Shown: positions 14,968 to 56,570 of the stretch, in pieces
How positions within the stretch are numbered: position 1 is the first letter of the stretch
How the letters are laid out: each line of letters opens with the position of its first letter
DNA from: Thermophilibacter provencensis
Lineage (GTDB): Bacteria > Actinomycetota > Coriobacteriia > Coriobacteriales > Atopobiaceae
Direction: 5' to 3'
NCBI RefSeq assembly: GCF_900128445.1
Contig: NZ_LT671417.1
Span: 1,933,201-1,997,200 of the forward strand
DNA: 64,000 nt
Notes under the pieces: generated by a model
Database searches by the model: none
Seen by the model: the letters and a program-made list of their open reading frames with translations, nothing else
What the model was told of the DNA's origin: nothing
Program-made: the position numbers and the translations under genes

Positions 14968-16572
<1,605 letters not shown>

Positions 16573-16586
16573 GCGTACCTCCTTGG

Positions 16587-16608
16587 AAAAAAGCGGTCCC
16601 CCGACCGC
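16587..16608 (-). promoter_or_regulatory. Terminator-like hairpin in the pckA leader
   Basis: On the minus strand GCGGTC-GGGG-GACCGC is followed by TTTTTT, then CC and AAGGAGG. A second hairpin (CCATCCGC/GCGGATGG, about 16632-16653) lies upstream, and CATAAT at 16668-16673 could be the -10 box. A terminator between promoter and start codon is the layout of an attenuator. No known riboswitch class is recognised. Confidence 0.6.
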
Positions 16609-16782
16609 CCCCTTTGACGCAACGTCGCGGCCATCCGCCCGGAACGCGGATGGATTCAGCAGGTGCTATTATGCCACATCGCCCCGCTAGCGGCGCCAAC
16701 CGCCCCATTCGGCAAGATTCGCGCAACAATTCAGTCAGGAATGGATAAGGTTTTGAGAGATAGGGAACGAAGGGAGAAGAAC

Positions 16783-36126: not shown

Positions 36127-38748
36127 CTAGTCCTCGTAGGAGCTGGGCTCGCGACCGTAGAAGGCGTCGAGGTAGAGCTCCTTGATCTCGGACACGAGCG
36201 GGTAGCGCGGGTTGGCGCCGGTGCACTGGTCGTTGAAGGCGTTCTCGGACATCTCGTCGAGCGTGGCGAGGAAGTCCTCCTCGGTCACGCCGAAGCCGGC
36301 GATGGTCGTCGGGACGCCGACGTGGGCCTTGAGCTCCTCGATGCGGGCGATGAAGTTCTCGAAGACCTCCTTGTCGTCCTTGCCCTGGATGCCGCAGAAG
36401 CGACCGGCCTCGGCGTAGCGCGCGAGGGTCTTGGGGTGGTCGTACTGCGGGAAGGTGCCCATCTTCACCGGGCGCTCGGCGGCGTTGTAGCGCATGACGC
36501 GGGTGAGGATGACGGCGTTGGCCAGGCCGTGGGCGATGTGGTGGTAGGCGCCGAGCTTGTGGGCCATGGAGTGGTTCACGCCGAGGAAGGCGTTGGCGAA
36601 GGCCATGCCGGCGAGGCAGGACGCGTTGGCCATGTGGTCGCGGGCCTCGACGTCGGTGCCGTCGTCATAGGCGCGCTCGAGGTAGTTGAGCACGAGCTTC
36701 ATGGCGCGCAGGGCGAGGCCGTCGGTGTAGTCGGACGCCATGATGGAGACGTAGGCCTCGAGGGCGTGCGTGAGGACGTCGACGCCGGAGGCGGCGGTCA
36801 GGCCCTTGGGCTGGGTCATCATGTTGTCGGTGTCGACGATGGCCATGTTGGGCAGGAGCTGGTAGTCGGCGATCGGCCACTTGGTGCCGGTGTTGGCGTC
36901 GGTGATGATCGAGAACGGCGTCACCTCGGAGCCGGTGCCGGAGGAGGTGGGGATGGCCACGAAGAAGGCCTTCTCGCCCATCTCGGGGAAGGTGTAGATG
37001 CGCTTGCGGATGTCCATGAAGTCCATGGCCATGTCCTCGAACTTGGCCTCGGGGTGCTCGTACATCATCCACATGATCTTGCCGGCGTCCATCGCGGAGC
37101 CGCCGCCGATGGCGATGATGCAGTCGGGCTCGAAGGCCTTGACCTGCTCGAGGCCGCGCTCGCAGTCCTGGAGCTTCGGGTCAGGGGAGATGGACCAGAA
37201 GCTGGAGTAGACGATGCCCTGCTCGTCCAGGGACTCCTCGATCTTCTTGGTGAAGCCGCTCTTGTAGAGGAAGGAGTCGGTGACGATGAAGGCGCGCTTC
37301 TTGCCGTAGACCTCGGAGAGCTCGCGCAGGGCCACGGGCATGCAGCCCTTCTTGAAGAAGACCTTCTCGGGGACACGGAACCACAGCATGTTCTCACGCC
37401 TCTCTGCGACGGACTTGATGTTGAGCAGGTGCTGGGGGCCGACGTTGCCGGAGACGGAGTTGCCGCCCCAGGAGCCGCAGCCGAGCGTCAGAGACGGGGC
37501 CATCTTGAAGTTGTAGATGTCGCCGATGCCGCCCTGGGCAGCCGGGGTGTTGATGAGGATGCGGCAGGTCTTCATGCGCTTGGCGTGCTCTGCCATCTTC
37601 TCGGTCTCGCGCGTGTCGATGAACAGCGAGCTCGTGTGGCCGTAGCCGCCGTCGGCGATGAGGCGCTCGGCCTTGGAGAGGGCGTCCTCCCAGTCGGAGG
37701 CGCGGTACATGCCGAGGATGGTGGTCAGCTTCTCGTGGGCCCACGGCTCGGAGGGCTCGACGGACTCGACCTCGCCGATGAGGACCTTGGTGCTCTCGGG
37801 CACGGTCACGCCGGCGGCCGCGGCGATCTTGGGGGCGGGCTGGCCGACCATCTTGGCGTTGACGCCGCCGTTGACGATGACGGTGTTGCCGACCTTGGCG
37901 ATCTCGTCGCCCTGGAGGAAGTAGCAGCCGCGCTTCTGGAACTCGGCCTTCACGGCGTCGTAGATGCCGTCGAGGACGATCACGTTCTGCTCGGTGGCGC
38001 AGATCATGCCGTTGTCGAAGGTCTTGGAGTGGATGATCGAGTTCACGGAGAGCTCGACGTCGGCGGTGTCGTCGATGATGGCGGGGTTGTTGCCGGGGCC
38101 GACGCCGAGGGCGGGCTTGCCGGAGGAGTAGGCGGCGTTGACCATGCCCGGGCCACCGGTGGCGAGGATGATGTCGGCGGAGCGCATGAGCTCGCTCGTC
38201 ATGTCGAGGGACGGCACGTCGATCCAGTCGATGATGCCCTTGGGGCAGCCGGCGGCCTCGGCGGCGTCGCGCACGATGCGGGCGGCCTCGGCGGTGCACG
38301 CCTTGGCGCGCGGGTGCGGCGAGATGAGGATGGCGTTGCGCGTCTTCAGGCAGATGAGCGTCTTGAAGATGGCCGTGGAGGTGGGGTTGGTCGTCGGGAT
38401 GACGGCCGCCACGAGGCCGATGGGCTCGGCGATCTGCTTGTAGCCGAAGGCCTTGTCGTCGGAGATGACGTCGCAGGTCTTCATGTCCTTGTACTTGTTG
38501 TAGATGTACTCGGAGGCGTAGTGGTTCTTGATGACCTTGTCCTCCATGATGCCGTAGCCGGTCTCCTCGACCGCCATCTTGGCCAGCGGGATGCGGGCCT
38601 TGTTTGCCGCCATGGCGGCGGCGTAGAAGATCTTGTCCACCTGCTCCTGGGTGAACTTCGCGAACTCGGCCTGCGCGGCACGCATCTCCTTGATGCGGGC
38701 TTGCAGCGCCTCGACGCTGTCAATCGTGGTCGTAACGTTGTCTGCCAT
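36127..38748 (-). CDS. adhE: Bifunctional acetaldehyde-CoA/alcohol dehydrogenase
   Basis: An 873-residue fusion that reduces acetyl-CoA to ethanol in two NADH-dependent steps. The aldehyde-dehydrogenase half (about 1-440) has [15 protein letters not shown] with the catalytic Cys. The iron-dependent alcohol-dehydrogenase half (about 450-865) has [39 protein letters not shown] and [17 protein letters not shown] with metal His residues. AdhE forms spirosome filaments in other species. AGGAGGAACGC precedes the ATG; an 11-bp hairpin lies just upstream in the leader. Confidence 0.97.
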
Positions 38749-38768
38749 GCGTTCCTCCTATTCCATCG

Positions 38769-38800
38769 GACCGCGCGGGCTTCCAGTAACCCGCGCGGTC
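38769..38800 (-). promoter_or_regulatory. Leader hairpin upstream of adhE
   Basis: GACCGCGCGGG and CCCGCGCGGTC form a perfect 11-bp stem with a 10-base loop, about 20 bases before the adhE start codon and just before its ribosome site. No T-run follows, so it is not a terminator; it may protect the mRNA 5' end or bind a regulator. Confidence 0.55.
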
Positions 38801-38927
38801 GTACAGAAGACAAGATACCGCTGCTAGAGATCTAGGCCACTCAGAATATCCTGAAGAGTATATCACGGGCGCGACGAGACCTTACGTCACACGCCGGCCC
38901 CGCCGCGCCCCCCCTCCCTCGCTGCCG

Positions 38928-55287: not shown

Positions 55288-55334
55288 GTGCGGGGCGCGG
55301 TCATAACCTGGCCCGCCGCCTCGCCGAGCGCCGC

Positions 55335-56570
55335 CTAGTCGTAGCGCTCGTCGAAGACGCGACGGGTCTTCTTCTCGCTCCTGGGCAGCACCCCGAGCTC
55401 GACGACCTTCACGAGCGGCGTGAAGCCGATGCGGCGCTTGACCTCGTGCGCGACGGCGTCCGCAGTGTCGAGGAAGTCCTGGGTGCCGTCCGTCTCCACG
55501 TAGATGCGCATGGTGTCGCGGCCCTCGAGGTGCGAGAGGCGGATCTGGTACTCGCTCGAGAGGGCCGGGAACGTCTGGAGGATCTCCTCGATCTGGCGCG
55601 GGAAGACGTTGACGCCGTGAATCTTGACCATGTCGTCCGAGCGGCCCTGGAGCGCGTCGATGCGCGGGAAGGGGCATCCGCAGGGGCAGTCGCCGGGGAT
55701 GATGCGGCTGAGGTCGTGCGTTCGGAAGCGGATGAGGGGCGCGCCCTCCTTGACGAGGGTGGTGATGACGATCTCGCCCCACTCCCCGTCAGGCAGCGGC
55801 TCGCCCGTCGCGGGGTCGACGATCTCAAGGTAGATGAAGTCGTCCCAGTAGTGCATGCCGTCCTCGGCGTCGCAGGAGATGCCGATGCCCGGGCCGTAGA
55901 CCTCCGTGAGGCCGTAGATGTCGTAGACGTCGATGCCAAGCCCCGCCTTCACGCGCTCGCGCATCCTCTCGCCCCAGCGCTCGGAGCCGATGACGCCCTT
56001 GGCGAGGGCGATCTGGTCGCGCATGCCGCGCTTCTCGACCTCTTCGGCAAGAAGCAGCGCGTAGCTCGACGTGGCGCCGATGACCGTCGTCTGGAGGTCC
56101 ACCATGAACTGCAGCTGCTTCTCGGTGTTGCCGGGGCCCATGGGGACGACCATGGCGCCGAGCTTCTCCGCGCCCGCCTGGAATCCGATGCCCGCGGTCC
56201 AGAGGCCGTAGCCGGGCGTGATCTGGATGCGGTCGTCCGCCGTGATGCCGGCGAGCTCGTAGCAGCGGCGGAACTGCTCCGCCCAGTCCTCGACGTCCTT
56301 GGCGGTGTAGGGGATGATGACCGGCGTGCCCGTGGTGCCGGAGCTCGAGTGGATGCGCACGATCTCGCGCTCGTCCACGGCCGAGACGCCGAGCGGGTAG
56401 CAGTTGCGCAGGTCCTCCTTCTCGGAGAAGGGCAGCGCGAGGAAGTCCTCCTCGGTGAGGACCTCGGTGACGCCCGCCTCCTCGAGACGCCGGCCAAAGT
56501 AGTTGCCCGACGCCACGAGGCGCTGGACCTGGTCGTTCACGAGCTTGAGCTGGGATTCGCTGATCTTCAT
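55335..56570 (-). CDS. paaK: Phenylacetate-CoA ligase family protein
   Basis: A 411-residue AMP-forming CoA ligase. The ATP motif is HSSSGTTGTPVIIPYT (about residue 75); IYGLTEVYGPGIGISCD and the C-terminal GRSDDMVKIHGVNVFPRQIE are typical of PaaK. Next to iorBA, it may activate or recycle aryl-acetates made when indolepyruvate-type oxidoreductase oxidises aromatic 2-oxo acids, with ATP formation if run in reverse. AAGGAGCCCAGC precedes the ATG. Confidence 0.93.
   Translation of the reverse strand: MKISESQLKLVNDQVQRLVASGNYFGRRLEEAGVTEVLTEEDFLALPFSEKEDLRNCYPLGVSAVDEREIVRIHSSSGTTGTPVIIPYTAKDVEDWAEQFRRCYELAGITADDRIQITPGYGLWTAGIGFQAGAEKLGAMVVPMGPGNTEKQLQFMVDLQTTVIGATSSYALLLAEEVEKRGMRDQIALAKGVIGSERWGERMRERVKAGLGIDVYDIYGLTEVYGPGIGISCDAEDGMHYWDDFIYLEIVDPATGEPLPDGEWGEIVITTLVKEGAPLIRFRTHDLSRIIPGDCPCGCPFPRIDALQGRSDDMVKIHGVNVFPRQIEEILQTFPALSSEYQIRLSHLEGRDTMRIYVETDGTQDFLDTADAVAHEVKRRIGFTPLVKVVELGVLPRSEKKTRRVFDERYD

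Follow-up and report, generated by a model that had tools for sequence, protein, structure and literature searches.

Upstream of pckA in Thermophilibacter provencensis, a short hairpin stands immediately before the ribosome binding site. This raises the question of whether transcription is terminated within the leader of this gene and, if so, whether elongation into pckA is controlled there. The window analysed here is the whole 64,000 nucleotide stretch of contig NZ_LT671417.1 that carries the features listed in Table 1. Analysis of the encoded protein assigned it to the ATP type, as it matched PF01293 at an E value of 2e-202 and TIGR00224 at 655 bits against a cut-off of 590. The description in the initial annotation of GCGGTC-GGGG-GACCGC-TTTTTT two bases ahead of AAGGAGG was exact (16608..16587), and the strand, which it had left unstated, is minus. 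The further hairpin that it placed upstream corresponds to P1 (16631-16653, minus), which takes up a large part of the leader's 5' half. The possible -10 box corresponds to the extended -10 promoter TGTGGCATAAT at 16668-16678, and TGTGNCATAAT was found in 24 of the 31 leaders of the genus. Transcription of pckA probably starts at about 16661. In plus coordinates the arms of P2 are at 16603-16608 and 16593-16598 and the loop is at 16599-16602, which gives a stem of 6 bp and a loop of 4 nucleotides. As the upstream neighbour of pckA, an aldose epimerase gene on the plus strand from 16783 (PF01263), is divergent, P2 belongs to the pckA leader. A role for P2 as the terminator of an upstream gene was ruled out because this neighbour lies on the opposite strand.

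Table 1. Positions of the pckA and adhE genes and of their leader features within the window
Feature	Position	Strand	Basis
pckA, ATP-type phosphoenolpyruvate carboxykinase, 534 aa	14968..16572	minus	PF01293, TIGR00224
pckA start codon ATG	16570-16572	minus	sequence
pckA Shine-Dalgarno AAGGAGG	16578..16584	minus	sequence
CC spacer between T6 and Shine-Dalgarno	16585-16586	minus	sequence
T6 run, first base is the base after the P2 stem	16587..16592	minus	sequence
Hairpin P2, GCGGTC-GGGG-GACCGC, putative terminator stem	16593..16608	minus	sequence, folding, genus comparison
Conserved TGCGTC element between P1 and P2	16616..16621	minus	leader alignment
5' hairpin P1, CCATCCGC-GTTCCGG-GCGGATGG	16631..16653	minus	sequence, folding
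Extended -10 promoter TGTGGCATAAT	16668..16678	minus	sequence, genus comparison
adhE leader RNA	38830..38743	minus	alignment, covariation
adhE	36127-38748	minus	NF010378, 1349 bits vs 951

P2 has the G+C-rich perfect stem (6 bp), the loop of between 3 and 8 nucleotides (4) and the T6 directly after the stem that are looked for in an intrinsic terminator. The shortness of the stem, at only 6 bp, and the G-rich loop were counted against reading it as one. Of 20,000 shuffles of the 100 nucleotide pckA leader with dinucleotides preserved, 25 contained a stem of 6 bp or longer with a minimum of 5 T in the 7 nucleotides straight after it. In 464 kb of this genome, sampled as 20 stretches of 20 kb and the window (G+C 68%), seven sites had a perfect stem of at least 6 bp with at least 5 T in 7. 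The 400 background genes in these 464 kb were called mechanically, so that some starts will be wrong, and 186 of them had a good Shine-Dalgarno (SD) sequence. Among these 186 genes, a stem of at least 5 bp stood close upstream of the SD in 28 and a stem of at least 6 bp ended no more than 14 nucleotides from it in 18; a tail of four or more T on an SD-adjacent hairpin was found in pckA alone (1/186). Hairpins adjacent to the SD are therefore not rare in this genome, and it is the T run that is unusual. Strong hairpins followed 55 of 394 genes in the genome sample and two of these 55 had at least 5 T in 7; this prevalence of U-poor 3' hairpins was also counted against the terminator reading of P2. 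The P2 site was missing from the output of a simple terminator scan, probably because G-U pairs lengthen its stem so that it runs into the T run. Taken as a whole, the pckA leader had an ordinary folding energy (z of -1.03 and -0.16).

The genus set comprised 31 genomes (Thermophilibacter/Olsenella), all of which encoded pckA; L029 is from another genus and lies outside the 31. One fixed rule revealed a G+C-rich hairpin at the ribosome site in 27 of the 31 pckA leaders compared with 28 of the 186 background genes, although the species are related and these are not 27 independent events. The rule was failed by L009, L011, L028 and L030. Three of these have hand-marked hairpins in which the stem is shorter or the gap longer; in L028 no perfect hairpin could be marked by hand, and this leader was hence omitted from the hand-marked set. 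In L026 the hairpin counted by the rule differs from the hand-marked one. As the hand-marked stems were picked as hairpins by the analyst, the fixed-rule 27/31 is the fair count. An alignment of the hand-marked leaders showed that the P2 stem has been re-paired between lineages, for example as GCGGTC/GACCGC, GGCGG/CCGCC and GACGGC/GCCGTC. That the stems differ and yet stay paired speaks for a real RNA hairpin. Comparison of related leaders for covariation, which the initial annotation had proposed, thus upheld the hairpin and its re-pairing in the hand-marked set; the T run was not kept, and the largest subgroup (16 sequences) added no covariation, its P2 stem being invariant. A pckA match was found in 127 genomes of the family, and 20 leaders from outside the genus were printed. 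By eye, most of these 20 had different promoters and no such hairpin, and two, L123 and L127 (genus g47), had a G+C-rich hairpin ahead of the SD. Conservation of the ribosome-site hairpin within the genus points to a common function that is not termination.

A T run of at least 5 was present in five of the 31 leaders, L001-L003 and L009/L030, and absent from the other 26; of the 30 leaders in which a hairpin was marked, 25 had a tail T run of 3 or shorter. L001, L002 and L003, which make up the clade of the window, have six, five and six T respectively despite the diverged 5' half of the L003 leader, and L009 and L030 have a T5 run as a second group. L020 and L041 have an identical GCGGTC/GACCGC stem without a T run. 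In a pckA tree of 30 tips, from which L040 and L041 were left out, the T-run leaders fell into two separate groups with support of 0.973 and 1.0. The node that joins them, which takes in L004, L012 and L020 as well, three leaders that lack the run, had a support of just 0.399, so that two gains of the T run are likelier but not proven. A d'Aubenton-Carafa-type terminator score was calculated for nine leaders. It was positive in L001 (23.1), L002 (3.6) and L003 (13.2) and negative in the other six (-6.0 to -63.3), which included L009 (-28.3) despite its T run. Among the nine scored leaders, those of the window's clade alone were therefore terminator-like.

Our preferred reading, to which we give a probability of roughly 0.47, is that P2 together with T6 is a fixed, partial leader terminator derived from the conserved ribosome-site hairpin. 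One alternative is that in every species the hairpin serves only to stabilise or insulate the ribosome site, the T run ahead of AAGGAGG having arisen by drift and leaving transcription unaffected. This would agree with a hairpin that is conserved when its T run is not, and with the T-less stems of L020 and L041. It accords poorly with the retention of 5-6 T in L001, L002 and L003 alike, with the T5 run of the second group and with the rarity of such runs behind perfect stems of at least 6 bp (7 in 464 kb), and we consider it rather unlikely. Another alternative acts at the level of translation and is compatible with a terminator. The TGCGTC element is complementary to ACGCA at the pckA start codon, and GCGTC or GCGCC was found in all 24 leaders of the window's promoter type and ACGC before the ATG in 22 of them. 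Pairing of TGCGT upstream of P2 with ACGCA(U) at the start codon would enclose P2 and the SD and damp initiation. TGCGTC and ACGC-ATG were the main conserved stretches of a 22-sequence alignment besides the SD and two stem positions, and RNAalifold chose this helix as the consensus of the 24 leaders. It was paired in 95.6% of cells (97.6% with P2), as against 25-60% when slid by 1-3 columns. However, two-sided changes were seen in none of its six pairs and the shuffle control was not exceeded (500/500). The energy of the duplex relative to shuffled upstream regions gave p values of 0.003-0.22 in 24 of 30 leaders but of 0.32-0.82 in L010, L014, L016, L017, L026 and L027, and one pair was broken in each of L010, L012, L025 and L027. 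Judged by these alignments, TGCGTC and its start-codon complement are compatible with a role in translation, but they show no covariation and the pairing fails in several species; we think it unlikely that such an element operates here.

Regulated attenuation would have the linker between P1 and P2 pair with the 5' arm of P2 as an antiterminator, for example GGCCGC with GCGGTC and TGCGTC in the loop, and a signal would pick the fold. For L001 and L002, the pre-terminator RNA was predicted to have all six bases of the P2 5' arm paired upstream, and barring the P2 3' arm cost just 1.7 and 1.5 kcal/mol respectively. The predicted best fold of the L002 and L003 leaders, when cut at the stem end, was without P2, a result that also counts against the terminator reading. 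Equal pairing was nevertheless found in 87 of 300 shuffled leaders for L001 and 84 of 300 for L002. L003 paired five of six bases (196/300 shuffles), and L009 and L030 three of five (281/300 and 276/300). The upstream pairing was thus neither above chance nor alike among the T-run species, and an antiterminator was rejected, as 84-281 of 300 shuffles matched the pairing across the five leaders that have a T run. The pckA leader had no Rfam match at the gathering score or at an E value of up to 5, and no conserved aptamer-like core was visible in the 22-sequence alignment. No conserved leader peptide was found in the pckA leaders by eye. A candidate from an ATG within P1, a short frame that by eye overlaps the pckA start in L001 and L002, was discarded as its ATG is missing in L003. 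The short frame beginning at TGCGTC has a start codon in 22 of the 24 leaders; as a leader peptide it was likewise discarded by eye, with no evident SD in most leaders and a length that varies between species. Regulated attenuation at pckA is possible but unsupported, and we would put it among the improbable explanations. Less probable still is a two-level device in which TGCGTC would pair with the start codon to turn translation off, the same region would undo P2 in the T-run lineage, and a factor binding TGCGTC or P2 would set the output of PEP carboxykinase in fermenting gut bacteria.

Because the competing folds were equally frequent in shuffled leaders, the fixed, partial terminator is preferred. 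By this account P2 would be the conserved hairpin found just ahead of the pckA ribosome site almost throughout the genus, and in the window's lineage a U run at its 3' foot would give a working-looking intrinsic terminator in the 5' UTR. RNA polymerase starting from the extended -10 near 16668 would make a leader of about 75 nucleotides; some complexes would stop at the U run, ahead of the SD, and the remainder would read on into pckA. The read-through fraction would most likely be set by the sequence, lowering basal output, and not be switched by a ligand, a protein or the ribosome. We infer both that termination takes place at P2 and that it is constitutive. A terminator 2 bases before the SD would act prior to ribosome binding, so that translation of pckA could not protect it, and no conserved leader peptide was found that might do this instead. 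Control of elongation into pckA, which the initial annotation had derived from the placement of the hairpin, can be followed in part. Termination at P2 would leave a transcript that lacks the ribosome site, and P2 is conserved as a hairpin, so that an effect on read-through is plausible in this species. Control as such is unsupported, given a T run in 5/31 leaders, a competing fold matched by 87/300 shuffles, no Rfam family and no conserved leader peptide.

ANTAR sites have six-base hairpin loops, compared with the loops of 7 and 4 nucleotides of the pckA leader, and an ANTAR site was set aside on loop size alone. The arrangement of P2 resembles that of intrinsic (Rho-independent) leader terminators and attenuators, with a G+C-rich stem, a short loop and an immediate U run between promoter and ribosome site. 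It differs from leader attenuators in that neither an antiterminator above chance nor a sensor nor a conserved leader peptide was found, although a protein or ligand site may be present, and in that its U run occurs in few species. Like the ANTAR dual-hairpin antiterminators (PMC3369936, PMC3369931), the short pckA leader has a pair of hairpins, and the second would be a terminator. The U-poor ('I-shaped') terminators of mycobacteria (PMC12288462) offer another likeness, as the genome here is also of high G+C and most of its sampled strong 3' hairpins have few T. P2 differs from these in its canonical U6 and in its position before, not after, a gene. Titles cited in PMC12288462 differ as to whether hairpins lacking U cause termination in mycobacteria. 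Among the literature matches listed, none appeared to describe an RNA-level attenuator in a pckA leader.

The region upstream of the leader was also compared. A promoter block lies upstream of the pckA -10 at about 16679-16760 (minus), with CTCAAAAC some 80 bases upstream of the -10 motif in 22 of the 24 leaders. The -35 region has a GAATGGGG-like sequence in 23 of the 24, followed by a CCGCGAGCGGGG-like stretch. Going by its conservation, this block may be an operator, one that the divergent aldose epimerase gene perhaps uses as well. A GTTAAC box, which we take to be reminiscent of a Rex half-site, is present upstream in pckA leaders with another promoter, both in L014, L016 and L026 and in L065, L067, L073 and L083 of other genera. 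It seems that the promoter of pckA has been exchanged during the evolution of the genus. In genus g53, about 50 bases (GCATGCTTGTCTTTGTTCGGCGCACGTAAGCTGCACCTAGGAGGTCTGCATG) before pckA were nearly identical by eye in eight genomes (L128-L131 and L133-L136), with small changes in L134 and L135 and more variation further upstream. Elsewhere, long perfect inverted repeats of the GACAAAGGTGACAGGGTCAACTGTCATGA and GGGGACAG types, with stems of 24-42 bp, were seen near several genes, upstream of the window ORF 55334-56570 (minus) and within L143-L162 (sample of G000); these are perhaps MITE- or REP-like.

A search of the 31 genus genomes with a model (R1) of 16 of the 24 pckA leaders of the window's promoter type revealed a second recurring locus, the adhE leader. 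A pattern search of the same genomes gave 44 matches compared with 9 for the reversed control. Seventeen of the 44 were at pckA, 16 at adhE and 11 at others, the last being close to the control level; the seven other loci inspected by eye included a uvrA-like, a dnaX-like and two further starts. The likeness of the pckA and adhE leaders consists of a common GATGCGTC plus GGAGGNACGCATG. It does not extend to the adhE leaders of the clade to which the window belongs, so one shared element is not claimed. The adhE leader contains TGTCYTYTGTACGACCG, a re-pairing hairpin, CGGTCCGA and AATAGGAGGAACGCATG, and the flanks are near-invariant. An alignment of 25 of the 28 adhE leaders, omitting the near-duplicates L214, L216 and L229, showed two-sided changes in six of the ten pairs of the hairpin, with 84.6% of cells paired. 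The covariation score was 0.228 as against 0.149 for shuffles (0/500 reached it) and 0.055-0.115 for slid controls. RNAalifold predicted TCCTTT (UCCUUU) of this leader to be paired with the SD region. The adhE leader model matched 38 of 140 family genomes at an E value of up to 0.05, including 29 of the 31 of the genus. Beyond the genus, three genomes of two other genera had the match before an adhE-like start and six matches were weak (E 0.0016-0.042). The two Rfam matches to the adhE leader were both far below gathering scores. By this covariation and distribution the adhE leader is a conserved structured RNA, and it may be an undescribed cis-regulatory RNA.

The adhE leader RNA may merit more attention than the putative pckA terminator, the effect of which would stay local to a few species. 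If the terminator works, a conserved ribosome-site hairpin would have been turned into a terminator by the gain of a U run, which would be a simple route to the origin of leader attenuators.
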